Shown here one piece after another: positions 5,567-58,033 of a stretch of 64,000 nucleotides of DNA. Under the pieces are notes generated by a model. That model made no database searches. It was not told the DNA's origin and was given only the letters and a program-made list of their open reading frames with translations. Source of the stretch: a virus. The position numbers were made by a program, and so were the translations under genes. Each line of letters begins with the position of its first letter. Positions within the stretch are counted from its first letter, which is position 1. The DNA is taken from positions 29,323-93,322 of the IMG/VR virus record IMGVR_UViG_3300005528_000046, one strand, 5' to 3'.

Positions 5567-5812
5567 TTATTTAGAATGCATATCTCGTATGTATTGTAAA
5601 TAAGAAGCTTTAGAATGTTCTTGCCGTTTAACTACGCTAGGCTTGATGTATTCTTTGTGTGCTTTAATTGTTTCTAATACACCTGATTGCTTTACTTTGC
5701 GTTTCCATGTTTTAAGTGCAGCTGCTAAATCTTCTCTACTACTTCCTGGTACATGTACTGCTAATGAATTGCCAGGAACAATCATTTGATGTTGTTTTTG
5801 TTTTTTACTCAT
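5567..5812 (-). CDS. rpsU: phage-encoded ribosomal protein bS21 homologue
   Basis: An 81-residue basic protein. Residues 28-76 match the bS21 pattern: a helix with ALKTWKRKVKQSGVL, then IKPSVVKRQ, then KASYLQYIRD. The KPSV-K-R and KA-Y-Q-R spacing is the form I associate with Bacteroidota bS21. bS21 binds the 30S platform near the 3' end of 16S rRNA. In Flavobacterium it helps to sequester the anti-Shine-Dalgarno sequence. The gene sits in the head-assembly cluster and is followed by a strong terminator. The first 20 residues are an unmatched extension. Confidence 0.85.
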   Translation of the reverse strand: MSKKQKQHQMIVPGNSLAVHVPGSSREDLAAALKTWKRKVKQSGVLETIKAHKEYIKPSVVKRQEHSKASYLQYIRDMHSK

Positions 5813-17194: not shown

Positions 17195-17210
17195 TACGTG
17201 TTTCTTTTAT

Positions 17211-17218
17211 ATAAATAT
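17211..17218 (-). promoter_or_regulatory. late promoter-like box
   Basis: ATATTTAT, 17 bases before the fusion enzyme gene; overlaps the stop of the tail-protein gene. Confidence 0.55.
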
Positions 17219-23085: not shown

Positions 23086-24020
23086 AACATTCCCATTTTG
23101 AGTTGCATTAACCGTTCAAACGTTAATACATCAGTATCTTGTATAATATTGTTAATTTGTTGAAATCCTAATTCTGATGCATCAGCATCTTGCAATTCTA
23201 TAAAATATACATTAAGACCTTCAGCCATAAATCGTTCAGCAATTTGAATGGCATTCTTAAGTGCATCAGCATCTAGACAAATATAAATGTCTCGTACGCG
23301 TTGTTCAATAATTTTTTTCTGAAGTGTGGATTGAATTATTTTACCAAACAAAGGAATTGCATTACGTTTAATTGCAATTGCATCAAAAGCTCCTTCGCAA
23401 AGAATGATTGGCTGTGACCAATTAACGAAAAGATCAAAACCAATTATGTCTTTTGAAATTTTTGGATTTTTATGTTTTTGTGTATCTGATTTATAAAATG
23501 CTCTACTTACAAAATAATTTAATTGACCGTTACAATCATAACTAGGAATAATTATTTTTCCAGAATATTCTCCGGTTTCACAATATCCAATTCTATATTT
23601 AATGATATCAAATATAGTTACTCCTCTATTTTTAAGATAATGTATTGCATTTCTATAGTCCGGAGTAGTTTTAGGTAACCATAATGGTTTATAATCTTTT
23701 GGAAGTTGTATTGTTTCTGTTTTAACATCAGCATCTTTAGTAACACGATATCGAGTTGATTCAATGATACGTCCTAGTTGTTCAAACTTTTCTTTAGGAA
23801 GATTTAGTTGTTTAAATAAACTAGAAATAGTACGACCTTTACGATCACTAATCCAACAATGCCATACATTTTCTCCTTGAGAATTTGTATTGATGTTTAT
23901 TTCTAATTTAGGTTTGTAATGTGAAACAAATGGTGAGAAAAATGCTACGTTATCTCCAGAAGTAGTTTTACCTTTACCAAGTACTGATTCTAATAACTGA
24001 AGTAACTTAATATGTTTCAT
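23076..24020 (-). CDS. gp61: DnaG-type primase, gp61-like
   Basis: A 314-residue primase. The N-terminal 75 residues have the shape of a CHC2 zinc-binding domain (FFSPF, then a strand, then VWHCW, then G-x-x-x-x-LF) but lack most zinc ligands. The TOPRIM part has the acidic IILCEGAFDAIAI near 203 and YICLDADA near 250. Primases of this type make RNA primers for the lagging strand. Grouped with the gp46/47 fusion and endonuclease I in a small replication-recombination cluster. Confidence 0.82.
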   Translation of the reverse strand: MKHIKLLQLLESVLGKGKTTSGDNVAFFSPFVSHYKPKLEININTNSQGENVWHCWISDRKGRTISSLFKQLNLPKEKFEQLGRIIESTRYRVTKDADVKTETIQLPKDYKPLWLPKTTPDYRNAIHYLKNRGVTIFDIIKYRIGYCETGEYSGKIIIPSYDCNGQLNYFVSRAFYKSDTQKHKNPKISKDIIGFDLFVNWSQPIILCEGAFDAIAIKRNAIPLFGKIIQSTLQKKIIEQRVRDIYICLDADALKNAIQIAERFMAEGLNVYFIELQDADASELGFQQINNIIQDTDVLTFERLMQLKMGMLWI

Positions 24021-25692: not shown

Positions 25693-27240
25693 CTATTGAA
25701 TTTTTTGATTTTTATGTTTTATAATCCACTGATGTGTATCTTGTGTAATCTGATCACGATCTACTTTATTTATATCTATATCACGATTTCCAGATTTATA
25801 TGCAACAATTACATTAATTAATTCTATTAATTCTTGCATATCGTTATCCCATTTGCCGGATGGTGTTTGATTGATAAATTTATCTATAGGATAGTCTTGT
25901 TTTCTAGATTCAAAAAATTCTAAATTTGTTGTGAACATTTCGATCATATCTACTTGTAAACTTCGTATAACATTAGTATCACTATCTTCATAAACCGGAC
26001 CATCATATGATTTATAATCAACTTGTATTCCGTTTACATATTTATTTTTTGGTTTATTATTTTCATCCCATAAAATTCCGTTAAATGGTTTATTATTTTT
26101 AAAATAACCTTCAAAATATTCGTCAGCTAATACTCGATTTAATTTTCCTTGTGATAATTGTCCATTTCGAATAATACCTGTAAATTGATGTGTTGGTAAT
26201 CCATCTGGTGTTTCTTGTCGATTACCAGTTTTTATATCTAATTGTAATGGTAAATTATTTGCATTTCCATTATTTAAATCTATAATATTTATAGCATAAT
26301 ATCCAATCTGATCAGATCCATATTTAAATTTTGAACGTTCATTTGTAGACTTAAATGACCCATCATATATAATAATCGTCGTCGGATCTGTAAGTATTAA
26401 TTTACCATCTAACGGTATATTATTTTTAGTATCAAAATTTCCATAAAATTGAATTTTAGATATAGTTCGACTCCATATATTTTTTGATAATTGGACTGTT
26501 AATGGATCTGATTCTGATACCAATATTGTATCTGGAATTTTTAATAATTCCTCTGGAGTTTGTAAATCAGCTGTTGATATTTTTTTATTAATTGTTTTTA
26601 ATTGTACTAACCACTCATATGCTTTTTTATATCTCGTTGCATCTATAAAAGTTTTATCGATAATTGATGTAACTGGTTTTAAATTAATCAAATCTATAAT
26701 TCTATTGGCTGATAGATGTGGAGTATTATTAGCTAATGGTAAAGCACCGCTAGATACAGTAACTTCTGGATATATCGATTGAATTCCACCACTAGGTAAT
26801 CCTAATGCAACATTGTATTGTCCAGATTTACTTTTAGTTACACTAGATTTATATATCCACATTAATTCTTCAATATAATTTTTAGGTAATATCCAATAAT
26901 TATATAAATAATTTTTTTTTGAATCACGTTGATCTGCAGAACGAATGAATAAATAATTACCGTTTAAAAAACGTTGCAATGTTTGATTTTGATTGATTCG
27001 TTGAGCAATTGCCTTTTCTACACTTTGTTTACTAGCTAGTTCTCCATTTCTTCTTTTAGCAATTGCTTTTAATTGAAATCCAGCTACAGCGCCTGCATCT
27101 TGAGCTTCTGCTATATCAGCTGATCGCAATCCGGTTTTAATAATTACCGTAATAACTTGCGTACTTGTTTTTGGTACAGCAGCTGTTGGTTGCAGATTTG
27201 ATTGCTCTAATAATAATTTTCGTATAATTTGTTCTATCAT
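25693..27240 (-). CDS. unknown protein with capsid-leader-like N-terminus and MORN-like stretches
   Basis: A 515-residue protein. The ATG at 27240 gives MIEQIIRKLLLEQSNLQP; the upstream ATG at 27252 is only 7 bases from the promoter box. LLLEQ fits the gp21 cleavage rule. The C-terminal half has repeated G-x-x-x-G-NG patterns (FTGIIRNGQLSQGKL, YFEGYFKNNKPFNGIL) reminiscent of MORN-type hairpins. No catalytic motif seen. It lies between the M15-like and kinase-like genes, both also with leader-like N-termini. Confidence 0.65.
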   Translation of the reverse strand: MIEQIIRKLLLEQSNLQPTAAVPKTSTQVITVIIKTGLRSADIAEAQDAGAVAGFQLKAIAKRRNGELASKQSVEKAIAQRINQNQTLQRFLNGNYLFIRSADQRDSKKNYLYNYWILPKNYIEELMWIYKSSVTKSKSGQYNVALGLPSGGIQSIYPEVTVSSGALPLANNTPHLSANRIIDLINLKPVTSIIDKTFIDATRYKKAYEWLVQLKTINKKISTADLQTPEELLKIPDTILVSESDPLTVQLSKNIWSRTISKIQFYGNFDTKNNIPLDGKLILTDPTTIIIYDGSFKSTNERSKFKYGSDQIGYYAINIIDLNNGNANNLPLQLDIKTGNRQETPDGLPTHQFTGIIRNGQLSQGKLNRVLADEYFEGYFKNNKPFNGILWDENNKPKNKYVNGIQVDYKSYDGPVYEDSDTNVIRSLQVDMIEMFTTNLEFFESRKQDYPIDKFINQTPSGKWDNDMQELIELINVIVAYKSGNRDIDINKVDRDQITQDTHQWIIKHKNQKIQ

Positions 27241-27258
27241 GATGCGTTTCATATATTA

Positions 27259-27269: not shown

Positions 27270-27806
27270 TTACCAATCAACCATTACCAAATTTCCGTTC
27301 CAACTCATTACATTATCAGATCGAAAATCTAAATCTAAATCAAATTCTGGTATATCTAATTTTTCAATGTCTGTTTTTAGAGCATTTAAAAAATTATCAA
27401 CCACCAGATCAATTGTATCTGTTTCAGCAACAAAATCAAATATTGAAACTTCACCACCATTTTCTCTAGCAAATACAGCATAATCTTGCATAAAATTATC
27501 AATGCTTGTTTTGATACGTGTGGATAATTCTGAAGCATTTGCCATAATATACATGTTTTTACCGTCAACATAATATACCGGAATAAACGTTGTGAACATG
27601 TCACTGCGATTAACTATGCGTTTAGCAACTTCATATTCATCACGTTCTTTAGTAATTTTAAAAACTTTATCTTCACCGTCGATTTCATATACACGACCAT
27701 TATCACCCGCACCGATTAATCGAAATGCATTGTTTTGTATTTTTTTCAAACAACGTTGAATATCAGAATCTGATATCTCTCGTAGTATTTGTTTTAATCG
27801 TATCAT
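27270..27806 (-). CDS. miniature protein kinase-like protein with leader
   Basis: A 178-residue protein with the order of protein kinase motifs in very small form. A glycine-rich loop GAGDNGRVYEI lies at 32-42, the VFK lysine at 50, and a possible helix C Glu near 58-59. The catalytic-loop pattern D160-F-R-S-D-N165 follows, and a metal-binding Asp sits in the final VDW (D177). There is no C-lobe after DW. The N-terminus MIRLKQILRE matches leaders of other proteins here and ends at a possible gp21 site. Its ATG overlaps the stop of the LamG protein gene (ATGA), so the two are coupled. Confidence 0.65.
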   Translation of the reverse strand: MIRLKQILREISDSDIQRCLKKIQNNAFRLIGAGDNGRVYEIDGEDKVFKITKERDEYEVAKRIVNRSDMFTTFIPVYYVDGKNMYIMANASELSTRIKTSIDNFMQDYAVFARENGGEVSIFDFVAETDTIDLVVDNFLNALKTDIEKLDIPEFDLDLDFRSDNVMSWNGNLVMVDW

Positions 27807-46688: not shown

Positions 46689-48272
46689 ATGAATTTAGAA
46701 AAACTATTAGCAGAAAATATGCTAAGATTTGGAGCTAAAAATTTAGATTCTAAATCAATTCGAACTTTAAAACAATTAATTGAACAAGCAGCTGCGACTA
46801 CCGATCCAAATGCTATTCCAAAATCTATTGAAGAATTAGCAGATTCTGCAGATGTAAAACAATCTCCGGTATATAATGACGTAATTGGACGATTAATTGA
46901 ATTAGCTAAAAAAGATAAACCATTAGCACGAAGATCTTTACAATATTGGCGTGGTGTAACTGATGCCAGTAATCAAAATTTTATTAAAAATACAGATGTT
47001 ATTATTAATACATTTGATATTGTTAAACGTAAATTTGATGAATCTGGATTTCGCGGAAAAAATATTTCAGTAAGCGTAAATTACGCTAAATTGGAACCTG
47101 TATTTCAACAACTAGTCGATCTATTAAAAACGAATAAATCAAAAAATGTATACGTAGATGTTGAAAAACAACTTCCTTCGTTACTTAATCTATGTAGGCA
47201 AATTAGTAGAAATGATAGATATAAATTTGTCGGCGGAAACGATCCACAAAATCCATTTACTTTAATAATTCTTCCAGGTAATATTCAAGAAATGCAAAAA
47301 TTTATTTCTAATTTTTCTGCACAAGTAAAAGATAAAACCGGAAAAACAACAGAAAAAATTGCAAAAGTTGCAATTGCATCAATCACCGATGCAGATAAAA
47401 TTGATTTATTAAAAGCAGCTCAAATACAATTAGAAAAAAGAAAAGAAGATAAAAAACTTAGTCTAGGAATAAAAGGAGTAGATAAAATTATAATTGCACC
47501 TGCAACAGAATTTAGTACCGTAATTCGTACAGAAAAGGAAGCTGATGCTAAGAATCCTATTATTCAAGCAGTAACATATCCAGATATATCAAAAGGTAAT
47601 ACTACCGAATCTCAAAATTTCTTTGGTGATAATCAATCTCAACTCACCGCAGAACAAAAATCAAAAATTGCCGAAACGTTACAAATAGCCGTTAATGCAT
47701 TAAAATCTGAAGGAGTAACTTTGACAGAAATACAATATAATGCCGGTGCTAGTACTAGTAAAGTATATACAAGATATACTGGGCCGGGGACATTAGCTAA
47801 AGTATCTTCTGCTGCAAATAATGAAATACTAGTTAAAGATCGTATAGCTTCAATTGAAACGGCATTACGAGAAGCTATAGATACAAATCCAGATACTAAA
47901 GCTTTACAAATAGTAAAACAACAATCAGATGCAAAACCAAATCAAGGTGCCGAATATGGTAAGGATGCTAATGGAGCTTTTGGACCAAATGGAATACGAT
48001 GGAAATTTGATGCCGAGGGAAAATTAGATCCATCACAAAAAGCCGAATACGAAAAAATATATGCTCCATATAGATCTAATTTTGGAGCATTTGTATTAGT
48101 AGGAATGCCAAAACCACCAGAAGAACCGGAAGCAGAATATTCTGGTCAAGGCAAATGGAGAATTAGTTTAATTTGGAATCGTATAGAAATACCACCACCA
48201 CCACAGGGAGGAGGCAGAGTTGTATTATATCCAATGAGTACTAAAAAACCAGTACCATGTCCAATATTTTAA
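46689..48272 (+). CDS. large unknown protein with capsid-leader-like N-terminus
   Basis: A 527-residue protein on the plus strand. The N-terminus MNLEKLLAENMLRFGAKNL closely resembles that of the unrelated protein at 57.1 kb (LKDILAENMRRYNTKNL); LLAE fits gp21 cleavage. The rest is Lys-rich alpha/beta with an Ala/Lys/Gln segment near 300-345 and a proline-rich end (PPPPQGGGR). No known domain. A late box lies 31 bases upstream, with TTAAAGGAATA as ribosome site; a terminator hairpin follows. Confidence 0.7.
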   Translation: MNLEKLLAENMLRFGAKNLDSKSIRTLKQLIEQAAATTDPNAIPKSIEELADSADVKQSPVYNDVIGRLIELAKKDKPLARRSLQYWRGVTDASNQNFIKNTDVIINTFDIVKRKFDESGFRGKNISVSVNYAKLEPVFQQLVDLLKTNKSKNVYVDVEKQLPSLLNLCRQISRNDRYKFVGGNDPQNPFTLIILPGNIQEMQKFISNFSAQVKDKTGKTTEKIAKVAIASITDADKIDLLKAAQIQLEKRKEDKKLSLGIKGVDKIIIAPATEFSTVIRTEKEADAKNPIIQAVTYPDISKGNTTESQNFFGDNQSQLTAEQKSKIAETLQIAVNALKSEGVTLTEIQYNAGASTSKVYTRYTGPGTLAKVSSAANNEILVKDRIASIETALREAIDTNPDTKALQIVKQQSDAKPNQGAEYGKDANGAFGPNGIRWKFDAEGKLDPSQKAEYEKIYAPYRSNFGAFVLVGMPKPPEEPEAEYSGQGKWRISLIWNRIEIPPPPQGGGRVVLYPMSTKKPVPCPIF

Positions 48273-48280
48273 ATAGTATA

Positions 48281-48315
48281 AATGGGATAGATTGATTCTA
48301 TCCCATTTTTTTATT
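48281..48315. terminator. bidirectional terminator
   Basis: ATGGGATAG, 7-base loop, CTATCCCAT followed by T-run on the plus strand and by an A/T tract for the minus strand. It serves the convergent 527-residue and CAP genes. Confidence 0.8.
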
Positions 48316-48850
48316 AAAAAAATCTTACAACACTTCTAAAAGTACGACCCCACTCTTTTCCCGATATCGGACCATAAGCATTACCTACTGCGGCAACGCT
48401 ATTTACAGGATTTAATATACAAGATCTATGTCCTGGAGAATTCATCCATATGCTTACTAAATCTTTTGCTAAATAAACATAAATACCTTCTGTTTTTTTG
48501 TAATCACCTGTAGAAATAGTAGTTGCAATGCAAATTTCACTGTAATACGGATCTTTACTATGTCCTAGAATACCTTCTCGAATAAGTGAATCTCCAAATT
48601 TTGAAGCTTTGTTACATTCTTGCAAAGATGCAATAGTTAATTTAGATAAATGATGTTGTTGTCGTTGTGAGTTAATCTCAGTTAAAATTGCCAATCTTAA
48701 TTTTTGCTCATCTATTTTGTTTTGTGAAAGAAATACACTGTCATTCCTCAATCCTTCATACCAAAGATCAATTTGTCGTTGTTTATGATCGGTTTGTGCA
48801 ATAATAATGTTAGACACTGTGATTGCTACAATAAAAAATAACTTTTTCAT
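48314..48850 (-). CDS. secreted CAP-domain protein
   Basis: A 178-residue exported protein. The signal peptide MKKLFFIVAITVSNIIIAQ has the Bacteroidota style. The CAP (SCP/PR-1) domain follows: LAILTEINSQRQQHHLSKL (about 68-86), GHSKDPYYSEI (near 115), VSIWMNSPGHRSCILNP, and the closing GRTFRSVVRFF. CAP proteins act outside the cytoplasm, often binding lipids or cell-wall material. Convergent with the plus-strand gene and sharing a bidirectional terminator. Possibly of host origin. Confidence 0.8.
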   Translation of the reverse strand: MKKLFFIVAITVSNIIIAQTDHKQRQIDLWYEGLRNDSVFLSQNKIDEQKLRLAILTEINSQRQQHHLSKLTIASLQECNKASKFGDSLIREGILGHSKDPYYSEICIATTISTGDYKKTEGIYVYLAKDLVSIWMNSPGHRSCILNPVNSVAAVGNAYGPISGKEWGRTFRSVVRFF

Positions 48851-48887
48851 AACGGTAAAATTTAAATGAATACTCTCTTATTATACT

Positions 48888-48895
48888 ATAAATAT
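48888..48895 (-). promoter_or_regulatory. late promoter-like box
   Basis: ATATTTAT, 38 bases before the CAP gene. Confidence 0.45.
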
Positions 48896-48943
48896 AAGAA
48901 AAAAAATCCGTACGTCCTAATATCATATAAACTTTTTTTACGG

Positions 48944-48951
48944 ATATTTAT
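48944..48951 (+). promoter_or_regulatory. late promoter-like box, very close to ATG
   Basis: ATATTTAT followed 4 bases later by ATG (TTTATTAATATG). Such spacing would give a leaderless message. Confidence 0.5.
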
Positions 48952-48955
48952 TAAT

Positions 48956-50128
48956 ATGAAACATGTAAAAAAAATAAATTTATCGGATATAATTTTAGAA
49001 GAGTCTATCCGTGTTTCATTATCAGAACAACCCAAATCAACAATAAAATCAAAGCCGTTATCTGCACAAGAAAAATCAGCAACAGTAACACCTTGGAATG
49101 CTGCAAAAATTGCACAATTAATTTATGATTCTAAAGGATATGTTTTGGATGATGAAGAATTTGCTAAAAAAGTAATTGAACGTAACATACACGATTTGCA
49201 ACAATACCAAAAAGTACGTGCTGAATTACAAAAATTAACCGGTGGTGCGGGAATTGCTGCGTATCTTAGATCTTTTATGCCGTTAAACGATCGATTAGAT
49301 GTAGCAGATCATTTAATGACCGGCGTTATCCCACAATCTCAATGGGATACTATCATAACACAATTGGTACCATGGGAAGATTTAAGATATGTTCAAACAG
49401 ATCCATATAAAACATCTGCAGCAGATAAACGTTTTGGTGATTATGCCGGTACTGGTAGAATGACACAAACTGCTTTAGATATTGCATATAAATTATATCC
49501 GGAACAATGGAAAACTAGAGATGAAGAAAATTGGAAAGAGTTCCGGCATGAAATGTTATTTACAAGTTCAGTAGTAACTTCAATTATTCCCATAATTGGT
49601 CCGTTTTTATCTGGTGGTTTAGGTTTATTGGATGCTAAATATCTTTGGGAGGAAGGACAATATTATGAAGCTGGTTTAATAGCTACATTAACATTACTAC
49701 CTGGCATAGGTCGTTTAGCTGCTAAAGCCGGTGTTGCAATAAAACCGTTTATAAAAAATATTGTAACGAAACTTGCAAATAAACAAGCTGTACATACACT
49801 TACGAAAGTAGAAAGAGAGGCATTGATACAAGTAGCAATGCGAAAAGATGCTATTAAATCAAAACTTATGGATATGACTGCTAAAGGTATTGAATCTGGA
49901 AAACTTAATCCATATTCCTTAAAGGGAGTCGATTGGATAACAAAAGGCACAAAAAAAGGTACTTGGTTTGTTGGTTCTCAAGTAGTTGTTCCGACAATAG
50001 CGTATGATTATGCATTTACATCTGATTATGTTCAGAATAAATTCAAACAACGTCAAGCTGAATTAGCATCTCAACAAATCGATCAATATATTCAACAAGC
50101 AAGAAAAAATCTTGCACGAGGAAAATAA
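48956..50128 (+). CDS. unknown plus-strand protein with hydrophobic centre
   Basis: A 390-residue protein starting MKHVKKINLSDIILEE. A start 90 bases earlier is possible but would run through the ATATTTAT box, so the ATG at 48956 is chosen, only 4 bases after the box. ILEE fits a gp21-type leader. A hydrophobic stretch (about 195-245: SIIPIIGPFLSGGLGLL and then LIATLTLLPGIGRLAAKAG) could insert in membranes or form an inner virion channel. Coupled by 1 base to the next gene. Confidence 0.65.
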   Translation: MKHVKKINLSDIILEESIRVSLSEQPKSTIKSKPLSAQEKSATVTPWNAAKIAQLIYDSKGYVLDDEEFAKKVIERNIHDLQQYQKVRAELQKLTGGAGIAAYLRSFMPLNDRLDVADHLMTGVIPQSQWDTIITQLVPWEDLRYVQTDPYKTSAADKRFGDYAGTGRMTQTALDIAYKLYPEQWKTRDEENWKEFRHEMLFTSSVVTSIIPIIGPFLSGGLGLLDAKYLWEEGQYYEAGLIATLTLLPGIGRLAAKAGVAIKPFIKNIVTKLANKQAVHTLTKVEREALIQVAMRKDAIKSKLMDMTAKGIESGKLNPYSLKGVDWITKGTKKGTWFVGSQVVVPTIAYDYAFTSDYVQNKFKQRQAELASQQIDQYIQQARKNLARGK

Positions 50129-50129
50129 T

Positions 50130-51161
50130 ATGAATTCAAAAAAATATCACAAATCTGCAATCAATGAAATACAACCGCCAGCTGATTCGGGATCTGGAAT
50201 TGGACTCGATACTATAACATGGACAGCAATTATTGGTTCAGTATTAGTAGCAATTGCTGCAAAATTAAAAATTCCATTTTTAGCATATATGGGTGGTAAA
50301 CGTATTAGCAAACTTATAAGCAAGTGGACATTAAAATCTAAAAAAGGTCATATCCGTGCGATAAAAGAATTATTAGATAATCCATCAAAATTAAAACAAG
50401 CTGGACTAACTGATGATGAAATTGCTAAATATGAAGCAATGTTAGTTAGAAATCCCGGTGTCAAAGAATTGATGACTGCTGAATTAATTAAATCTACATT
50501 TGAACAATTACGTTCAGGAAAACTTACATTAGATGATGCATATGATATTTTAAAAAAATATGATAAAGATTCTGATTTATGGAATGATTTAAAAGCTGCA
50601 TATCCAAATGCTAAACGTAGAACAAAAACTAGTACTGGTGTTAAAATTACACAACAACGAATTAATTATAATGCGTTGCCGAGTATAACATTAAGAAATT
50701 CAATATTATCTGATCGTGATTTTATAACATTAGCAACAAAAAAATTAATAAGTCCTAGATGGTCATCATCTTATGGATTAAGCAGAGATTGGACTAGACA
50801 ATTTTCTTTATTAGTTAAAAAAATTGACAACTTAACAAAAAAAGATAAAGATAAAGGTTTTGATTATTTATATAAATTACGTAGTGGTAAAAAATGGGGC
50901 GGACGTTCTATAGGATTTATATCACCTGAGGTTAGAAATGCAATTGATGATTTTTATGCATTACGTAATTTAGGAAATATTGAATTTCGAAATACTACTA
51001 AACTTTATAATAGAAAAGATCAACCATTATCATTGAAATACTGGAGAGATGATTTATATGCACAACTTAAAGAAGCAGGACGTAGTAGTTGGTGGTTAAA
51101 TAAATCTGAACCGCAAAGGCAACGATTATCCAAATTGATCTTCAGCATGTTAGAAAAATAA
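50130..51161 (+). CDS. unknown plus-strand protein, membrane segment near N-terminus
   Basis: A 343-residue basic protein. The ATG at 50130 follows the previous stop by 1 base (TAATATG) with GAGGAAA upstream; an earlier TTG is less likely. A possible leader ends at INEIQPPAD. A membrane segment lies at about 30-55, then Lys/Arg-rich helices (KGHIRAIKELLDN; LTLDDAYDILKKYDKD). No family recognised. Together with its neighbour it may be an ejected or injected protein. Confidence 0.65.
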   Translation: MNSKKYHKSAINEIQPPADSGSGIGLDTITWTAIIGSVLVAIAAKLKIPFLAYMGGKRISKLISKWTLKSKKGHIRAIKELLDNPSKLKQAGLTDDEIAKYEAMLVRNPGVKELMTAELIKSTFEQLRSGKLTLDDAYDILKKYDKDSDLWNDLKAAYPNAKRRTKTSTGVKITQQRINYNALPSITLRNSILSDRDFITLATKKLISPRWSSSYGLSRDWTRQFSLLVKKIDNLTKKDKDKGFDYLYKLRSGKKWGGRSIGFISPEVRNAIDDFYALRNLGNIEFRNTTKLYNRKDQPLSLKYWRDDLYAQLKEAGRSSWWLNKSEPQRQRLSKLIFSMLEK

Positions 51162-51163
51162 AT

Positions 51164-51739
51164 TTAACGTTTAACAAATCCATTTAAAAAGTTACGTTGT
51201 TTTTCAATAGCCGAGTCTAACTCTGAGTTTCTAACAACTTTTCGTTTCGTTGTATTATTTCTGCCAGTTCCAGAAGTGCTAGGTGAAACAACATCTGATT
51301 TGGTAGATCGCTTTTTTCTAGTTTTTCTAGTTTTAGAATCGTCGTTTGCATCATCTCCTCCGCCATTCGAATTGCATATTGAGCTTTCATCTTTTGACCC
51401 TGCGGAGTTGATAGAAACTGTTGTAGCTCTTCGGTGTTTTGGGGTATTTTGAATGCGTTTGATGAGCTCGGCATCTCCCAATGACTTCGTTTCTTCGAAG
51501 AAGATATATCCTGTGTTATAGTTCGTCTTTTGCCCCTGAATTTGGATGCCGCACGGATACTTAATTCCACTGCATGATTCCACATTGTATTGAACGCCCC
51601 AAGTATTTTTTTTAATACGTATAACATAACCATATTGTTTTTGTCCTAGCCAAGAAAAGAAAACCGCATCTCCTATTCGGAATTGCGGCTTATCAAATTT
51701 AGCTTGTAATTTGTCTGAAATTTTTTGTTTTTTTGCCAT
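51164..51739 (-). CDS. unknown protein with SH3-like N-terminus and disordered tail
   Basis: A 191-residue protein. Residues 18-80 look like an SH3-like beta barrel (FRIGDAVFFSWLGQKQYGYVIRI, WGVQYNVE). The tail (105-190) is low-complexity Ser/Asn/Gly/Lys/Arg. A second ORF in another frame overlaps this tail and looks at least as protein-like, so the true product of the 3' part is uncertain. It converges with the plus-strand island (2-base gap). Confidence 0.6.
   Translation of the reverse strand: MAKKQKISDKLQAKFDKPQFRIGDAVFFSWLGQKQYGYVIRIKKNTWGVQYNVESCSGIKYPCGIQIQGQKTNYNTGYIFFEETKSLGDAELIKRIQNTPKHRRATTVSINSAGSKDESSICNSNGGGDDANDDSKTRKTRKKRSTKSDVVSPSTSGTGRNNTTKRKVVRNSELDSAIEKQRNFLNGFVKR
51217..51474 (-). 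CDS. possible nested gene in an alternative frame
   Basis: An 85-residue ORF inside the 3' half of the previous gene, in a different frame, starting MPSSSNAFKIPQNTEELQQF. It has the character of a real helical protein (STPQGQKMKAQYAIRMAEEMM; LFHLALLELAEIIQRNEK), whereas the host frame here is low-complexity. GGGAG lies directly before the ATG, too close for a normal ribosome site. It could be an overlapping gene, the product of a frameshift, or a chance ORF. Confidence 0.4.
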   Translation of the reverse strand: MPSSSNAFKIPQNTEELQQFLSTPQGQKMKAQYAIRMAEEMMQTTILKLEKLEKSDLPNQMLFHLALLELAEIIQRNEKLLETQS

Positions 51740-51745
51740 TACACG

Positions 51746-52207
51746 TTAATTAGTGCATATACTGGATATTTGATCTACTATCTTAAATATTCGTAAGTAT
51801 CTAGTAACTTTGTCTTTACGAAACATTTTTTCCATGTTACGATCTCTGCAGAGAATATATCCAGATTCTATAAATTTATTAGATACAAACCGTAAAGCAC
51901 GAAGACTATTGGATTCCAACATAATAGATTCATCATCAATCATTACATCAACACGTTCTTGATCTGGTTGTGTATTTTGATTAAGGCTTTCTACATGAAG
52001 TTGCATCTCTTCATTTCTTTTTGCTTCGTTAAGCAAAGTATCCTTAACGGATTGAAAGAACTTAGATAAATCTATATTTCCAATACCTTTTTGATGTTCA
52101 ACTTCATAAATATCAAATAAATAATGCAATCTATCCGCATCTTCTAACATCTTGAAATACTGCCATTCTGCATAGTTTATATTGATGTGTGAGAATATTG
52201 TTTTCAT
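51746..52207 (-). CDS. unknown protein
   Basis: A 153-residue mixed alpha/beta protein starting MKTIFSHININYAEW. No motif recognised. The C-terminal half has a winged-helix-like rhythm (LRALRFVSNKFIESGYILCRD) but the similarity is weak. Its ATG overlaps the stop of the 54-residue gene (ATGA). Confidence 0.6.
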   Translation of the reverse strand: MKTIFSHININYAEWQYFKMLEDADRLHYLFDIYEVEHQKGIGNIDLSKFFQSVKDTLLNEAKRNEEMQLHVESLNQNTQPDQERVDVMIDDESIMLESNSLRALRFVSNKFIESGYILCRDRNMEKMFRKDKVTRYLRIFKIVDQISSICTN

Positions 52208-52368
52208 GATTCTACCCTTTCAATATTAAACAATTCAACAACTTGATGTTTAAGTAATCGTTTAAGTTGTGCTATAATTTCTATAGCTTCATCTAAACAT
52301 GTAGCATATATCGTACCAACAATTTCCGCAGAAGAATCAGCTCGATATGAAAACTTATACTTATACAC
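52204..52368 (-). CDS. small protein, GTG start
   Basis: A 54-residue protein reading (M)YKYKFSYRADSSAEIVG, followed by a helix. The GTG start lies 14 bases after an ATATTTAT box and the TGA overlaps the ATG of the next gene, which supports it as real although no ATG is present. Confidence 0.6.
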   Translation of the reverse strand: MYKYKFSYRADSSAEIVGTIYATCLDEAIEIIAQLKRLLKHQVVELFNIERVES

Positions 52369-52379
52369 CGCTTTGTTTA

Positions 52380-52769
52380 TTATAAATATAAACCAAGCTC
52401 ATAAGCACGAACCGAAGATATCAATGCTTCATTTAAAGTTTCTGCTAATTTTCTTAATTCATGACGTTGCAAAGTAAATGTTTGCGATTTGATTCGAACA
52501 TCATATGTATCAGATTTAGTACCAGATACATAAGCTTCATCCATTGCAGTCTGCACAAATTTTGAATAATTGATAAGATCTTTATATGTTAATTGAAGTT
52601 TTTGATTGTAAATGCAAAGTTCACCAATATTGGTATTCATTGGATCTGTTTTAAATATTTCTTCTGAAATTTTTTCAGCAAATACGAAATCTAAATTTGT
52701 CCATACATTGCCATAACGTTTTTGATATTTTTCCGAAATAGCCCATGGGGTGTTAATACTACGTGTCAT
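52380..52769 (-). CDS. unknown helical protein
   Basis: A 129-residue mainly helical protein starting MTRSINTPWAISEKYQKRYG. The C-terminal half reads FTLQRHELRKLAETLNEALI. No family recognised. It follows the methyltransferase gene by 2 bases, so the two are probably co-translated. The late promoter box of the following gene lies within its last codons. Confidence 0.6.
   Translation of the reverse strand: MTRSINTPWAISEKYQKRYGNVWTNLDFVFAEKISEEIFKTDPMNTNIGELCIYNQKLQLTYKDLINYSKFVQTAMDEAYVSGTKSDTYDVRIKSQTFTLQRHELRKLAETLNEALISSVRAYELGLYL
52382..52389 (-). promoter_or_regulatory. late promoter-like box
   Basis: ATATTTAT, 14 bases before the GTG-start small gene; lies in the last codons of the preceding gene. 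Confidence 0.45.
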
Positions 52770-52771
52770 TT

Positions 52772-53434
52772 TTATTGAATTTTATAAATTGTTACTGTGT
52801 ATACGTCGTTTGAATAATTATGTCGAACATTGACATAACGATATTTTTCTATTAGCATGTCCATAACTAAACCTGGATGAACATAAAAGAATCCATCATG
52901 AATCTTATTATTGATTGGAGATAATAAATTGAATGAAACTGCTTGATTTGCTAAATTATACATTTTATCAATATCTTCAAACATTTTCATGAGATCAGCA
53001 TCTTCAGAATCACATTTTCTTTGTGTAAAATATCCAGATGCTACAACCCAATCATGATTATTTAGTTTTGCATTCTCAAACGAGTTAGGCTGTATGTCTA
53101 AATTGTACTTTTGCTTAGCTAAATCAGTCATAATTGGATTATGATCAATTCCGTTATATCCAAATAAGGCATTAGGATACATTTCTCGTATAAAACCATA
53201 TAAATCGCATCGTCCGCAACCAATATCCAAAATATTGCTATTATTCGGATCAAATCCGATAATTAAATTTTGAAATAAATACTGTTGTTCTGCAGTTGTA
53301 TTATATCCTACAACTTGAGGACTATTTAACATGTAATCTGGATCAGTATCTGCTTTTAGATTATCTCTACGAACATGTTCTGGATCGTTTCCGTAAAGTA
53401 AACGTTGAATTTTTTCTTGTAACTGATTTAACAT
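52772..53434 (-). CDS. class I SAM-dependent methyltransferase
   Basis: A 220-residue protein with the Rossmann-type motif I NILDIGCGRCD (67-77), followed by GYNGIDHNPIM (motif II acidic turn) and VVASGYF. A target-recognition domain is not evident, so the substrate is unknown: DNA, tRNA or a small molecule. It lies in the block of small late genes and is followed by the 129-residue gene. Confidence 0.75.
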   Translation of the reverse strand: MLNQLQEKIQRLLYGNDPEHVRRDNLKADTDPDYMLNSPQVVGYNTTAEQQYLFQNLIIGFDPNNSNILDIGCGRCDLYGFIREMYPNALFGYNGIDHNPIMTDLAKQKYNLDIQPNSFENAKLNNHDWVVASGYFTQRKCDSEDADLMKMFEDIDKMYNLANQAVSFNLLSPINNKIHDGFFYVHPGLVMDMLIEKYRYVNVRHNYSNDVYTVTIYKIQ

Positions 53435-53444
53435 GATAAAATTT

Positions 53445-53720
53445 TTATGCTCTTACAATTGGTAATTGATCTGCATCTGCTAATTCATTGTAATTCATTG
53501 TAGGAACTACAATTTTTGTATCACAAAGACGTTCGGTTAATTCTTTGTTGATATATGTTTTTTTAGATTTAGCTGTGTTGACCATTGTCATAGCCGTACG
53601 ATTCTCAAACAAGATATCATACATAGTTGCTTTATTAACAATGAATTTATCTAGAATAATTGCTACACGATTTGCATCTTCTTGAGTAACAATGACAGGT
53701 TGTCCTATTTTATATGACAT
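53445..53720 (-). CDS. small unknown protein
   Basis: A 91-residue protein, mostly beta/alpha, starting MSYKIGQPVIVTQEDANRVA. The N-terminal part resembles a small SH3-like strand set. No family recognised. Its ATG overlaps the stop of the previous gene by one base. Confidence 0.6.
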   Translation of the reverse strand: MSYKIGQPVIVTQEDANRVAIILDKFIVNKATMYDILFENRTAMTMVNTAKSKKTYINKELTERLCDTKIVVPTMNYNELADADQLPIVRA

Positions 53721-53929
53721 TATTCTAAAATTTTAATGATTTTACTTGCGTTAACTGCCTTAACTTCAAAATCAAAATTGTAACCTTGAAAATCTTTAAC
53801 AACTTTAGCTTCAGCTTCTGTAACAGATAAAGCTTCTACCAAATAAGTTTCAGTAATTCGTTTTTCTTTTGGTCCTTTTGGCGTATCAACTACATCGATA
53901 AGTTGTACTTTTGCTGTGTAATAACTCAT
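53720..53929 (-). CDS. small unknown protein
   Basis: A 69-residue protein starting MSYYTAKVQLIDVVDTPKGPKEK, with a beta-alpha-beta pattern including an SVTEAEAKVVKDFQG helix. Phage proteins of this type are often annotated only as hypothetical. Heads a two-gene unit. Confidence 0.6.
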   Translation of the reverse strand: MSYYTAKVQLIDVVDTPKGPKEKRITETYLVEALSVTEAEAKVVKDFQGYNFDFEVKAVNASKIIKILE

Positions 53930-53991
53930 TTTTGTTTAAATTTAAATTAATATAACTTTATTCAAATAATATAGAAAAAAAATGATAAAAC

Positions 53992-54855
53992 CTAAAGTTT
54001 TTCCATGTATTTTTGCAATCTTTTCTGTGATTTATAAAATTCATATGATTGCTGTATTTGTCTAGGTGTCAATTTTAATTTGTTTTGCAACATATTTAAT
54101 ATATCACCTATTATACGTTCCTTATCATCATTTGTTAATATATCAGTTTGTATCATTTTTATGATACGATCTAGGTAGTTAACAAATTGTTTAGGTAGTT
54201 TATCAATCATTTTGTATTTTATATCTGACACTCCGATATTTTTTGATTTTTTCTCGGTATCTTTATCAGCTTTTTTGTTTTTTTCAGCTGATGATTTGAT
54301 ATTTTTTGTTTTTTGAACAGGGTCTTTCAGAATTGCTTTAGTAATTTTTGCTGCTTCAACTAAAATATCACCATATCGAACTACCCAAGCAACTTCTGGT
54401 GCACCTGCAGGTGGCTCTGTTGGTGCAACACCAGCGCCTCCTCCTGCGCTAGCTTCACCTTTTTCAACTTTTTCTTTATCTTCAGCACCTAATCCTTTTA
54501 CATCATCTAAAGATAATTGTAATTCTATAGTATAATCGTTATTACGACCCCAACCTGTATAAGGAACAATGCGTATTGCATTTTTTCTAAGTAAACTTAA
54601 TAGGATATTTGGTGTGATATTTAAATCTTTACCGCTTCTACCTATAAATTCTCGTACACCGATATCAGATAAAGAATAAATGATACCAATTTGTTGTGTT
54701 CCATATGCATCAAACTTACCAAGAAATTTTTCTTCTGCTGGAGTAAATAGCGAATTTGCGGATGTTGATGGTGCGTTATCCGTTTCTTGAGGAGGAGCTT
54801 CCGTTAATATTGCTTTTAACGTAGATTCGACAATCTGATGCACTGAACGTATCAT
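53992..54855 (-). CDS. unknown protein with leader-like N-terminus
   Basis: A 287-residue protein starting MIRSVHQIVESTLKAILTEAPPQ. ILTE near residue 19 fits the gp21 leader rule, and the following stretch is Ser/Thr/Pro-rich. A folded part (36-115) is followed by a Gly/Ala/Pro linker, a Lys-rich segment and a C-terminal helical domain (TPRQIQQSYEFYKSQKR). Its ATG overlaps the stop of the next upstream gene. Confidence 0.65.
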   Translation of the reverse strand: MIRSVHQIVESTLKAILTEAPPQETDNAPSTSANSLFTPAEEKFLGKFDAYGTQQIGIIYSLSDIGVREFIGRSGKDLNITPNILLSLLRKNAIRIVPYTGWGRNNDYTIELQLSLDDVKGLGAEDKEKVEKGEASAGGGAGVAPTEPPAGAPEVAWVVRYGDILVEAAKITKAILKDPVQKTKNIKSSAEKNKKADKDTEKKSKNIGVSDIKYKMIDKLPKQFVNYLDRIIKMIQTDILTNDDKERIIGDILNMLQNKLKLTPRQIQQSYEFYKSQKRLQKYMEKL

Positions 54856-55043
54856 TATTTTTCTGCTTTAGTTTCTGCTAATTGCGTTGAACGATATTTT
54901 GTTGCTAACTTTTTTAATTCGTTAATTGATTTTCTTGCAACCGTAGCTGCTTTTTTTACGCCTTTTGCTTGAAAACGATCATGATTTTCTTTAAACGTTA
55001 ACCAATGCGATTCCATTACTTCATAGATTTCTTGTGATGTCAT
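54855..55043 (-). CDS. small basic helical protein
   Basis: A 62-residue protein starting MTSQEIYEVMESHWLTF and ending in a Lys/Arg-rich helix. Histone-like in composition (KKAATVARKSINELKKLA) but too short to name. An ATATTTAT box lies 24 bases upstream; it shares a transcript with the 287-residue gene. Confidence 0.6.
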   Translation of the reverse strand: MTSQEIYEVMESHWLTFKENHDRFQAKGVKKAATVARKSINELKKLATKYRSTQLAETKAEK

Positions 55044-55067
55044 ATTAACCTTTTTTTTTTATTTATT

Positions 55068-55075
55068 ATAAATAT
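55068..55075 (-). promoter_or_regulatory. late promoter-like box
   Basis: ATATTTAT, 24 bases before the 62-residue gene. Confidence 0.5.
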
Positions 55076-55080
55076 ATAAC

Positions 55081-55275
55081 TTACTTGAAACGATCCATTA
55101 ATACGTCGAGATTGGTATCCATTAATATTAATTCTTCGTAATCACTTAGTTCCAAAATAATTTGTTTATTTTTATTTTCATATATTCTGACAATACGATT
55201 CATATTGATAAATTGACGAGAAATATCACCGTTACTTAATTTAACATTTATCATTATGAATGTTGGTTGATTCAT
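55081..55275 (-). CDS. small beta-rich protein
   Basis: A 64-residue protein of alternating strands starting MNQPTFIMINVKLSNGDIS. No family recognised. Its ATG lies on the stop of the preceding gene (one-base overlap). Confidence 0.6.
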   Translation of the reverse strand: MNQPTFIMINVKLSNGDISRQFINMNRIVRIYENKNKQIILELSDYEELILMDTNLDVLMDRFK

Positions 55276-55853
55276 TAATCTCCACCGTAATATTTTCTGC
55301 CAGCTTCTTTATCCATCTGTATCATAGCGCCAATTCCGGAACCACCAACATCTTTAGATCTATACGGTGGATCTGGTTTGAAATCATCCATATTAGGTTG
55401 AATTCCTTGTTCAACCACTTTAGTTAGAACTTTATATGTATACCATCTAGATGGATTGCCTGTTCTTAATATATCAATAACATGATCTGGAGCATGATTA
55501 ACATCACCAGTATATAATGGCTGATATCGATCTAGTTTATTCATATCTATATTTTGTTCGATAAACTTTGCTACTTTCCATTTAGCATAATTTGTGGGTA
55601 ATGTATATTTTGAAATATCAATGCGATTAGTAATAGAATCTGGAATTTTCATCCAATCTGTTTCTACATACTCATCCGCAAAATCTGACCCCATATTGGC
55701 ATCCGCTGATAATAAAAGTACACGACGCCATTCTTCTGGCATCTGAGACCATTCATTAGATTCATTATATTCTCGCAAAATACGTTTAGTTCGTTGAATT
55801 TCTTCTCGAAGAATTTGTACGTGACTCGGATTTTTAAAATCAAAAATTTTCAT
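55275..55853 (-). CDS. unknown protein with charged N-terminal helix
   Basis: A 192-residue protein starting MKIFDFKNPSHVQILREEIQR. The N-terminal helix includes ILRE and a second ILRE (RTKRILREYNE), both hydrophobic-x-E sites. The remainder is Asp/Tyr/Pro-rich (YVETDWMKIPDSI; WYTYKVLTKVVEQG) and ends Gly-rich. Possibly another packaged protein. Follows the ferritin-like gene by 2 bases. Confidence 0.6.
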   Translation of the reverse strand: MKIFDFKNPSHVQILREEIQRTKRILREYNESNEWSQMPEEWRRVLLLSADANMGSDFADEYVETDWMKIPDSITNRIDISKYTLPTNYAKWKVAKFIEQNIDMNKLDRYQPLYTGDVNHAPDHVIDILRTGNPSRWYTYKVLTKVVEQGIQPNMDDFKPDPPYRSKDVGGSGIGAMIQMDKEAGRKYYGGD

Positions 55854-55855
55854 GA

Positions 55856-56230
55856 TTACTTTAAATTTTCTAGTTTATATACGGTAGTGTAAATTAAATC
55901 TTTAACAGCATCTAATTGATTTAAAATAAATGTGTCTTTTGGATCTAGTTTATCATATGTTCTTTCTACATACAATGCTAAGGCCTTAAAATATTTAAGA
56001 GTTGTTGCGGCATCATATGAATCAAATCGTTCTGCCGGAACATATCCTGTTAATATTCCATGTTTTCCTTGATATGATTCTACTAATGCATCTACTAATC
56101 CAGGAATAGCATCATAATATGCATTTAATGCCATATGTGCAGCAAACGAACCTTCTCCAGTTGTCTGCCAATGAAAGATATGCGCCTGATCTCGAGATGC
56201 TAATAGAGTAGAAATTAATTTTTCAAACAT
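55856..56230 (-). CDS. ferritin/Dps-like helical protein
   Basis: A 124-residue helical protein with a ferritin-like rhythm: LLASRDQAHIFHWQTTGEGSFAAH, then a helix with YYDAIPGLVDALVESYQG. The His-Trp-x-x-x-G part resembles Dps, where that helix carries iron ligands. It matches the short Dps-like proteins of cyanophages and other T4-like phages. Whether it binds iron is uncertain. Confidence 0.55.
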   Translation of the reverse strand: MFEKLISTLLASRDQAHIFHWQTTGEGSFAAHMALNAYYDAIPGLVDALVESYQGKHGILTGYVPAERFDSYDAATTLKYFKALALYVERTYDKLDPKDTFILNQLDAVKDLIYTTVYKLENLK

Positions 56231-56386
56231 TTATTTTCCTTGTGCTACATAAGGTTTAACGTAATTAGTCGCATTTTTGCTATGACTTGTTTTTGTCTTT
56301 GCATGAATGCCCGGACGTTTTACCTTTGGTTTTTTAATATGTACTTTTACACTATTTCCTTTTACTTTCTTTACTGCTGCTGACAT
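56231..56386 (-). CDS. small basic protein, unknown
   Basis: A 51-residue very basic protein (MSAAVKKVKGNSVKVHIKK at the start, ending YVAQGK). Its stop TAA is directly followed by the ATG of the ferritin-like gene, and GGGGCAAT precedes its start. Likely nucleic-acid-binding or head-associated by charge. Confidence 0.55.
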   Translation of the reverse strand: MSAAVKKVKGNSVKVHIKKPKVKRPGIHAKTKTSHSKNATNYVKPYVAQGK

Positions 56387-56480
56387 ATTGCCCCTTGTAT
56401 GTTAATATTTCATATAAACCGCAAAACCCAGCAATAACCATAAAGGTACAACCGATAATAAAAGCAAATAACTTATTCAT
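56352..56480 (-). CDS. small single-pass membrane protein
   Basis: A 42-residue protein: MNKLFAFIIGCTFMVIAGFC forms one membrane segment and the tail is Ser/Lys-rich. The ATG lies 4 bases after an ATATTTAT box (possible leaderless start). Its end overlaps the basic 51-residue gene by 35 bases in another frame. Confidence 0.55.
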   Translation of the reverse strand: MNKLFAFIIGCTFMVIAGFCGLYEILTYKGQYVSSSKESKRK

Positions 56481-56484
56481 ATTA

Positions 56485-56492
56485 ATAAATAT
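56485..56492 (-). promoter_or_regulatory. late promoter-like box, very close to ATG
   Basis: ATATTTATTAATATG: the ATG follows after 4 bases, as at 48944. Confidence 0.45.
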
Positions 56493-56500
56493 TAAACAAT

Positions 56501-56530
56501 AAAAAAACCTGATGTTTTCACACCAGGTCT
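56501..56530 (-). terminator. terminator after acidic leader-bearing gene
   Basis: Minus strand ACCTGGTG, loop, CATCAGGT, then seven T. Confidence 0.85.
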
Positions 56531-56562
56531 TAACTATATTCGCCTAAGGTAGCAGACGCTCT

Positions 56563-56955
56563 TTATTTCTTGAATGTTTCTTTTAAGATATAATCATTAC
56601 CTTTAAGATTGCGAAGAATTCTTTGTTCTAACGGAATTTCACGCATTTCTTGCAATCCGCCTTTTTTAATTAAAGTAGATTCATTTTTTTCTTCTTTATC
56701 AGACTCTTTAGCTTCTTTATCTTTAAAAGCTTGTTTCATTGATTCCGTTTCATCACGATCTCCATCAGCATCAATATAATCCGGTTTCGCAGCTTCATCA
56801 ACTTCTTCTTCGTCCATATCCGGCATATTTAATTCTGCTTCCTCACGTAGTTTGGCTTCATATGCTGCAGTAGTATCAGCAATAGTAGGTAAAGACCCAT
56901 CTGCCTTACGTTCCCAAGCAAAGCCCTCTTTAAGTATGTTTTTTAATTTTATCAC
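56563..56955 (-). CDS. acidic protein with capsid-leader-like N-terminus
   Basis: A 130-residue protein starting MIKLKNILKEGFAWE. The leader matches those of the kinase-like protein and the 58.0-kb protein. The middle is acidic and Lys/Glu-rich (MDEEEVDEAAK; ESDKEEKNES) and probably disordered. Late box 17 bases upstream with AAAGGAA; terminator follows. Confidence 0.65.
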   Translation of the reverse strand: MIKLKNILKEGFAWERKADGSLPTIADTTAAYEAKLREEAELNMPDMDEEEVDEAAKPDYIDADGDRDETESMKQAFKDKEAKESDKEEKNESTLIKKGGLQEMREIPLEQRILRNLKGNDYILKETFKK

Positions 56956-56971
56956 GATGATTCCTTTTAAT

Positions 56972-56979
56972 ATAAATAT
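56972..56979 (-). promoter_or_regulatory. late promoter-like box
   Basis: ATATTTAT, 17 bases before the acidic leader-bearing gene. Confidence 0.5.
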
Positions 56980-57024
56980 AAGAAGTTATGAAAAGGTATT
57001 AGTACGTTGTAAACGATGATTTTA

Positions 57025-57070
57025 ATGCATTAGTGCGTCCTCCCGGTTTCACCGAGGACCGCACATGCAT
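57025..57070 (-). other. strong extended hairpin after the 57.1-kb gene
   Basis: ATGCAT arms outside a GTGCG/CGCAC stem, then TCCT/AGGA and CGGT/ACCG with small bulges. It is not followed by a T-run; possibly an RNA-stabilising or processing element at the 3' end. Confidence 0.6.
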
Positions 57071-57082
57071 GTAATTATCAGA

Positions 57083-57502
57083 TTAATACTTGTCAAATCT
57101 TTTCCAATTGGGATCTTTTTCACCCCATTCAGCCGCATCGGAATAATGGTCTAATCTACTAAGAAATTTTCCGGATACATCTCGGATCCATTGTGCGGCT
57201 TGATTGGGAGTTATGTGTAGATGTGGTTTTTTTATATAATTTACAGCGTCTATTATTTTATCTAAGAATTTTTCCCTAATCTTGGCGTTAGCGTCTGCGC
57301 GCGCTTGATCTTCCGGAGAAAGTTTTATAGTTGGATACACAGGTGGTCCGCTCGTACGTGTTGTCGCTGCAGCCGGTGTGGCCGAGTTAGATGGTGCCGT
57401 TGTTGTAGTCGAAGCAGGTGTTGCCGTCGCAGGTTGTTCTGTTAAATTCTTGGTGTTGTAGCGACGCATATTTTCCGCAAGAATGTCTTTTAGTTTGTCC
57501 AT
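57083..57502 (-). CDS. unknown protein with capsid-leader-like N-terminus
   Basis: A 139-residue protein starting MDKLKDILAENMRRYNTKNL, closely like the N-terminus of the 527-residue plus-strand protein. An Ala/Thr/Pro linker (20-55) precedes a folded C-terminal domain (YPTIKLSPEDQARADAN; ITPNQAAQWIRDVSGKF). Base composition is G/C richer than the region to its right. A strong hairpin follows. Confidence 0.65.
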   Translation of the reverse strand: MDKLKDILAENMRRYNTKNLTEQPATATPASTTTTAPSNSATPAAATTRTSGPPVYPTIKLSPEDQARADANAKIREKFLDKIIDAVNYIKKPHLHITPNQAAQWIRDVSGKFLSRLDHYSDAAEWGEKDPNWKRFDKY

Positions 57503-57526
57503 TACATGTTCCTTTATTAATATATA

Positions 57527-58033
57527 TTACTCATCTTCAATACCAGTAGAATCCGCCGTGCTTTTACGCACTATAAACAGTTTTCCGTTGGTATCTAATA
57601 CAGTGTATCCAGCTGTCTCTAAACGTGTTTTATTCGCAGCCAATAAGCTTCGATAGATGCGAGTCTTTTGCAAGTCTTTTTCCGTGGATGTGGTGTCCGA
57701 TCCCGTAACGTCTATTGCCTCAGGTCGCCATTGGGCCACAAAGTCCAACAAGGCTTCCGCCACAGTACTCATTAGACGCAGGTAATTCACGCGTCCCACA
57801 GCCGCACTACGTGAATGTGCTACCGTAAAACCGCGTCCATCCGTGCTCGGGGTAACCATGGCAAATCCCCATTCATCATAGCCTTGTGGCGTCATGTTCA
57901 ACTCAATCTCAACGCCGTCAGCATCAAACGTTGATTGCAATGAATCGCCCCATTCTTCCCATGGGAATTGTGTGGCATATGGAGTAGCGCCGCCTAGAGA
58001 GATTTCCGTGAGTAGTGATTTTAATCGTATCAT
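57527..58033 (-). CDS. unknown protein with capsid-leader-like N-terminus
   Basis: A 168-residue protein starting MIRLKSLLTEISLGGATPYA. The ATG at 58033 is preferred to a TTG six bases upstream. LLTE fits the gp21 rule. The remainder contains a helix-rich part (RVNYLRLMSTVAEALLDFVAQ) and a C-terminal strand pair (GYTVLDTNGKLFIVRK). Higher G/C than the late region. Last gene before the non-coding boundary. Confidence 0.65.
   Translation of the reverse strand: MIRLKSLLTEISLGGATPYATQFPWEEWGDSLQSTFDADGVEIELNMTPQGYDEWGFAMVTPSTDGRGFTVAHSRSAAVGRVNYLRLMSTVAEALLDFVAQWRPEAIDVTGSDTTSTEKDLQKTRIYRSLLAANKTRLETAGYTVLDTNGKLFIVRKSTADSTGIEDE

Follow-up and report, generated by a model that had tools for sequence, protein, structure and literature searches.

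In phage T4, the internal protein (IP) IPIII carries an N-terminal capsid-targeting sequence (CTS) in which residues 4 and 7 serve targeting and residues 8 and 10 serve processing, with the prohead protease gp21 cutting after L/I-x-E (PMC9026906). For the T-even ip loci of other T4-like phages, the signal sequence is cited as having led to 10 or more Ips, whose known functions are as inhibitors of type IV restriction (as cited in PMC12373910). Elsewhere, the N-terminal 30 residues of DarB from phage P1 suffice to direct a reporter into the capsid (PMC9024508), in what is reported not to be a T4-type gp21/scaffold system, and the giant phages SPN3US and phiKZ, going by general descriptions in passages of PMC5694885 and PMC10052503, eject a bolus of head proteins matured by a prohead protease. 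Here we analyze a family of N-terminal leaders encoded in a 64,000-nucleotide stretch of virus DNA (the window), which comprises bases 29323-93322 of the 93,322-base virus record IMGVR_UViG_3300005528_000046 (the 93-kb contig); coordinates refer to the window unless marked contig. Judging from sequence, these leaders are very probably cleaved capsid-targeting propeptides on a set of cargo proteins that would be packaged, cut, and injected.

The resemblance to T4 IPI-III and Alt extends to an N-terminal leader of about 10 residues with hydrophobic residues at positions 4, 7, and 8, Glu at 10, and an L/I-x-E end, to unrelated mature parts, to a homologous protease, and to a major capsid protein (MCP) propeptide at the same place. 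As at T-even ip loci, a single signal sequence precedes diverse accessory proteins; those loci employ one conserved signal, whereas here we find many loci, several signal types, and cargo without assigned function. The T4 IPIII leader, MKTYQEFIAE in the T4 record, has the same length and pattern as ours but other residues, and a search of T4 with a profile of our longer leaders (class A, below) returned no match. Given this absence of demonstrable homology, we class the leaders as working like a CTS, analogous to it and not members of the T4 IP family. Relative to T4, there are several leader dialects, including a 22-residue double-site form, the cargo is far more varied, and leader swapping is seen directly; the host is probably a member of the Bacteroidota, and packaging is predicted. 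Cleaved capsid targeting is already known from T4 and its relatives, but the leader family, its dialects, and their swapping appear to be new: in the open-licence literature, the leader strings had no real match in full text and we found no paper describing them.

Leaders of one kind precede unrelated proteins

The original prediction placed leaders at eight gene starts. Each translates as listed, and we judge all eight to be real:

25693-27252, minus strand: possible leader protein of 519 residues; possible leader MKRIMIEQIIRKLLLE (27205-27252); the start at 27240 is the second Met of the open reading frame (ORF) from 27252, MIEQIIRKLLLEQ
27270-27806, minus strand: short-leader protein of 178 residues; leader MIRLKQILRE (27777-27806), then I
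46689-48272, plus strand: class-A leader protein of 527 residues; start MNLEKLLAENMLRFGAKNL; leader MNLEKLLAENMLRFGAKNLDS and a body without known identity
48956-50128, plus strand: leader protein of 390 residues, beginning at an ATG within the ORF from 48866, MKHVKKINLSDIILEE; leader MKHVKKINLSDIILE (48956-49000)
53992-54855, minus strand: longer-leader protein, conserved, of 287 residues; start MIRSVHQIVESTLKAILTEA; leader ending ILTE-19 (54799-54855)
56563-56955, minus strand: short-leader protein of 130 residues with a GTG start; leader (M)IKLKNILKE (56926-56955), then G
57083-57502, minus strand: class-A leader protein of 139 residues; start MDKLKDILAENMRRYNTKNLTEQ; leader residues 1-22 (57437-57502), MDKLKDILAENMRRYNTKNLTE
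57527-58033, minus strand: short-leader protein of 168 residues; leader MIRLKSLLTE (58004-58033), then I

The near-identity of 15 residues claimed for the proteins starting at 46689 and 57502 was borne out, and the pair belongs to a set of four in the contig, with two further class-A genes outside the window at contig 879-1379 and 1408-1728 (starts MMKKNILAENMRRFKTKNLNE and MMKKLKDLLAENMHRFGTKNINE). When N-termini across the contig are compared, the six pairs among these four genes score 51-77 and rank directly after paralogous tail genes; all others score at most 36. The coding pattern ENMxRFxTKNL occurs twice in the window and in none of 100 shuffles. More broadly, [LIFV][LI]xE lies within residues 3-20 of 16 of the 86 contig proteins, where internal windows give 4.4 ± 1.9, and the enrichment holds without the ENM class (12 proteins, p=0.0003). 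The looser [LI].E is only mildly enriched (29 vs 18.7 ± 3.3), too weak to serve as the sole test, so LxE near a start does not alone make a leader. The contig holds four class-A and three strict short-leader genes.

As for the short leader, 71 non-redundant proteins begin with M[IL][KR]L..[LI][LI].E, and their bodies form 33 unrelated clusters. Of 4948 proteins, 98 have its core, [IL][KR]L..[LI][LI].E, at the N-terminus, compared with 12 internal occurrences in 1.17 million residues. Among 147 proteins with Glu at position 10, position 4, which was unselected, is hydrophobic in 90%, compared with 14%, 24%, and 3% for positions 3, 5, and 6. The conserved positions 4, 7, 8, and 10 thus coincide with the ones implicated by T4 genetics in targeting (4, 7) and processing (8, 10). 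This short leader corresponds to the first half of the long class-A leader.

We collected the class-A family with a degenerate DNA pattern for ENMxRFxTKNL, which yielded at least 120 IMG/VR stretches, 146 genes, and 119 non-redundant proteins; the counts that follow are among the matches listed. The motif falls within the first 12 residues in nearly all of these, and clustering of 118 bodies gave 63 groups, of which 47 are singletons. An alignment of 82 full-length proteins has invariant columns in the leader only. The Glu at position 0 was fixed by the search pattern; in columns outside it, Leu occupies -2 in 116 of 119 proteins and Glu occupies +12 in 104 of 119. At this second site, +10 is L or I, +11 and the residue after Glu vary, and conservation drops sharply past Glu. 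Both leader ends therefore read L-x-E, matching the gp21 cleavage rule. At the DNA level, codon position 3 is the most variable in the leader (0.42 vs 0.22 and 0.14), R4 uses six codons, and the invariant residues use all of theirs, which points to selection on the peptide and rules out a DNA-level element.

Host acquisition of the leader was rejected: the same DNA pattern had eight hits in 257 Gb of bacterial genomes, and in no case does a protein begin with the leader; these are chance reads, most broken by stops and the rest within unrelated reading frames. A tblastn search of named phages with the 22-residue leader, a short query, found no match. As a separate observation, 24 class-A bodies (e.g., L016, L022, L063) have DxDQNNNGYPDxTE, resembling a calcium-binding repeat, directly after the second predicted cleavage site.

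The genome encodes a matching protease and capsid site

The window contains a minus-strand T4-type head module encoding a gp23-like MCP, a probable scaffold, bS21 (5567-5812), a gp21-type protease, portal, and large terminase. Three of its genes bear on the leaders:

2644-4308, minus strand: gp23-like MCP; propeptide residues 1-57 (4138-4308), ending QLVKE/A
4336-5382, minus strand: probable scaffold or core protein, located between MCP and protease, the place of gp22; G003, G004, and Mel-JY01 conserve it
6748-7374, minus strand: gp21-type prohead protease, the predicted leader-cutting enzyme; phrog_207 E=2.1e-54, aligned with T4 gp21

The gp21 homologue that had been claimed is thus present, with both active-site motifs, GELDHP and GISSRGLGS, intact and in common with T4 gp21. 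Its own N-terminal site is QLIVE-8 (T4: QLLIE). The MCP propeptide end, QLVKE57/A, aligns with T4 FLTE65/A and reads QIVSE in Flavobacterium phage immuto and QLISE in Microcystis phage Mel-JY01; P3 at this site is V or I, not L. The probable scaffold is a candidate docking partner of the leaders.

Together with Rhodothermus phage RM378, immuto and Mel-JY01 are the nearest named relatives. The MCP is 57% identical to that of immuto and 38.6% to that of RM378, and the protease is 54.5% identical to that of immuto. These relatives place the source phage among the Far-T4 (passages of PMC4360716) and bS21-encoding freshwater phages with predicted Bacteroidetes hosts (passages of PMC9723584); it is an aquatic T4-like phage whose host is probably one of the Bacteroidota. 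As far as those passages go, both groups share with it bS21 in a TerL/portal/protease/MCP module, a Far-T4-like MCP, and an origin in lake viromes, and a leader family is not mentioned in the passages searched.

We detected gp21 in 6 of 14 leader-bearing records; taking each record as a piece of a gp21-containing 160-kb genome, about 6.4 would be expected from the sum of lengths/160 kb. The 100-kb record without gp21 also lacks terminase and therefore probably represents the remainder of a genome. Phage crAss001 has neither a phrog_207 hit nor leader enrichment (1 vs 1.6).

Leaders come in dialects and are swapped between bodies

Dialect A reads LKNILAENMRRFGTKNLxE and the short leader MIKLKxLLxE; immuto uses dialects B (FDLKKFLVENKLTxNSKLLxE) and C (RMQxLAGIITE), which likewise end in [LI]-x-E. 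In this cultured relative, whose host is Flavobacterium sp. LMO8, neo-N-termini would be predicted behind SKILKE in gp076, AQLLKE in gp077, SKLINE in gp003, and GIITE in gp083 and gp230, as well as behind QIVSE in the MCP. In IMG/VR, dialect B heads 55 proteins in 29 body clusters, with the same E0-N1-K8-L10-E12 spacing as A, and dialect C (RMQMLAGIITE, ending IITE) heads 118 proteins in 82 body clusters. At none of 115 loci bearing dialect A, among the matches listed, did B or C also occur; this is suggestive only, as the loci span at most about 15 kb and were retrieved by dialect.

Comparing bodies after leader removal, we found 86 pairs in which the same body stands under a class-A and a short leader, the closest at 97.9% identity over 95 residues, as well as 26 pairs across dialects B and C (e.g., 78% over 153 residues) and four across A and B. 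Near-identical bodies with different leaders indicate that leaders are exchanged as cassettes. A further N-terminal type in immuto, MKKSxLRxIIKEEL (102294-102869, 102880-103359, 113188-113946), may be another leader; a body of this type swaps with dialect B (68% over 156 residues, L216_2671 vs immuto gp095).

Proposed mechanism

During head assembly, we propose, the N-terminal 10-22 residues would dock varied phage proteins onto the prohead core, and the gp21-type protease would then cut behind the Glu of [L/I]-x-E. A short leader would be cut once; the long class has two such sites, spaced 12 residues apart, of which one or both would be used. The mature proteins would be freed inside the head and ejected together with the DNA when the phage next infects a cell. 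In this view, the class-A leader extends the short one (KLKNILAE) by 12 residues, NMRRFGTKNLxE; leaders behave as interchangeable cassettes, and each phage lineage has its own dialect. We infer the docking partner, cleavage, packaging, injection, and cargo function. A broader proposal, which we take seriously without yet favoring, is that across aquatic Bacteroidota T4-like phages the lineage-specific dialects act as interchangeable address labels, each read by its own core, such that any accessory protein would become injectable on gaining the local leader.

Should the capsid-targeting reading hold, the leaders would reveal from sequence which proteins are injected by an abundant and mostly uncultured group of phages, and hundreds of 'hypothetical' genes would become candidate first-minute effectors in anti-defence or host takeover. 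The leaders would also give exact neo-N-termini for mass spectrometry and a portable packaging tag for Bacteroidota phages, and swapping shows a route by which new proteins could be recruited into the injected set. Were the address-label proposal true as well, these phages would have a large, fast-exchanged stock of effectors to inject, among them kinase-like and zeta-toxin-like proteins.

Competing explanations

The reading of the leaders as capsid-targeting sequences cut by gp21, which the original prediction advanced, is supported by the sequence tests applied: the leaders stand on unrelated bodies and are swapped, their ends read L-x-E, protease and MCP site are present, the conserved positions are those of the CTS, bacterial genomes lack the leader, and conservation acts at the protein, not the DNA, level. 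Several points weigh against it. The short-leader regular expressions were picked after the data were seen; although both have gp21, Mel-JY01 carries a single strict short leader and RM378 lacks one; the second Glu is missing in 15 of the 119 class-A copies, including that at 46689; and Pfam and PHROG scans of class-A bodies gave no solid function, so that 'injected effector' is a role we infer.

Best placed among the alternatives, and in our judgment unlikely, is that most of the tagged proteins belong to the head core or scaffold: the leader would anchor them on the core, gp21 would degrade or release them at maturation, and little or no cargo would be injected. T4 gp67, gp68, and gp22 are core proteins that gp21 cuts (PMC9026906), genes adjoining gp21 in the head module also have LxE near their starts, and the protein at 53992-54855 is widely conserved. 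Because a second conserved [LI]xE lies inside that protein, it may be a head-core component instead of cargo and is a weak member of the cargo set; a minority of tagged proteins may be such parts. Unlike structural core proteins, however, most bodies differ among genomes, as the cluster counts above indicate, the leader genes are located away from the head module, and some encode enzyme-like domains (a Zeta-toxin domain above the Pfam cut-off; kinase-like motifs).

We give much less weight to the idea that the leader stays uncleaved and serves for docking to a different phage structure or compartment (the tail, a replication site, the membrane, or the ribosome), its L-x-E ends being incidental. 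Docking and cleavage are separable in principle, as Asp at position 10 of T4 IPIII stops processing but not targeting (PMC9026906), yet all three unlike dialects terminate in [LI]-x-E, where x varies and conservation stops directly behind the motif, orthologues vary x and keep E, and the genome holds a matching protease and MCP site. Chance, whole-gene shared ancestry, or a mobile DNA or regulatory element has almost no standing, for although some short-leader genes are plain orthologues with related bodies, the N-terminal to internal ratio is 98:12, bodies are otherwise unrelated, and codon use varies freely.

Individual leader genes and their neighbors

In the 46689-48272 protein, the first L-x-E is LAE-9 and the second site reads NLDS; its orthologues G004_26128 and L115_6970 retain the leader. 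The 57083-57502 protein has a Thr/Ala/Pro-rich body, with cuts predicted after E10 and E22. Orthologues of 57527-58033 in G004, L076, and L057 read LLTEI, ILTEI, and LLAEI, and those of 56563-56955 have K, A, S, or L as the x of L-x-E; in both sets, x differs and Glu is constant. Bodies homologous to 48956-50128 carry instead MIQLKSLFNE, MIRLKKLLEQ, or MANIKLKDLLNE. For 25693-27252, the weakest member of the set, no orthologue was found.

The 53992-54855 protein has C-termini that vary among relatives: in the homologues L082, L074, L187:13502-15472, and L190:1023-2609, the N-terminal domain is kept and the C-terminal domains differ. The only matches to its predicted model (predicted local distance difference test, pLDDT, 64) were weak ones to MarR-like winged helices, the best at E 0.027.

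The body of 27270-27806 contains kinase-like motifs (GAGDNGRVY, FKIT, DLDFRSDNVM, MVDW). In a profile search its best PDB hits all have a kinase-like fold, although below threshold (E 0.14-0.71), and its AlphaFold model (pLDDT 45) is unusable. Small kinase-like proteins with a Gly-rich loop, Lys, D...DN, and terminal DW/DV stand behind short leaders in several phages, including L134:3366-3806 and L007:2283-2990; the window copy stops right at the DFG-like motif. At L350:11013-11798, the short leader MIKLLDLLKE is fused to a Zeta-toxin domain (38.6 bits vs a Pfam cut-off of 22.3). Aminotransferase, PD-(D/E)XK nuclease, and M23 peptidase hits in a mixed scan are probably chance short-motif matches, and we do not claim them as cargo.

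The primase at 23076-24020 (LLES) probably has a false leader. Outside the window, three tandem paralogues at contig 16003-19036, starting MFFGNSPSDFGFLP, are probably virion fibre-type proteins.

bS21 and Shine-Dalgarno use

Phages encoding bS21 have Shine-Dalgarno (SD)-like sites: 34% of genes in this contig vs 14% at a control position, with 30 vs 9 in G003, 31 vs 10 in G004, and 40 vs 9 in Mel-JY01. Relatives without a bS21 gene lack this enrichment (immuto, 6 vs 16; crAss001, 17 vs 21). Bacteroidia ribosomes normally ignore the SD, and their bS21 helps hide the anti-SD (PMC9976891); phage bS21 might accordingly unmask it. Passages of PMC9723584 draw the opposite inference, that phage bS21 blocks the anti-SD as host bS21 does. 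SD-like sites precede 75 of 113 class-A leader genes, compared with 257 of 929 other genes on the same contigs, L004-L123 (odds ratio 5.2, p=1.5e-15).

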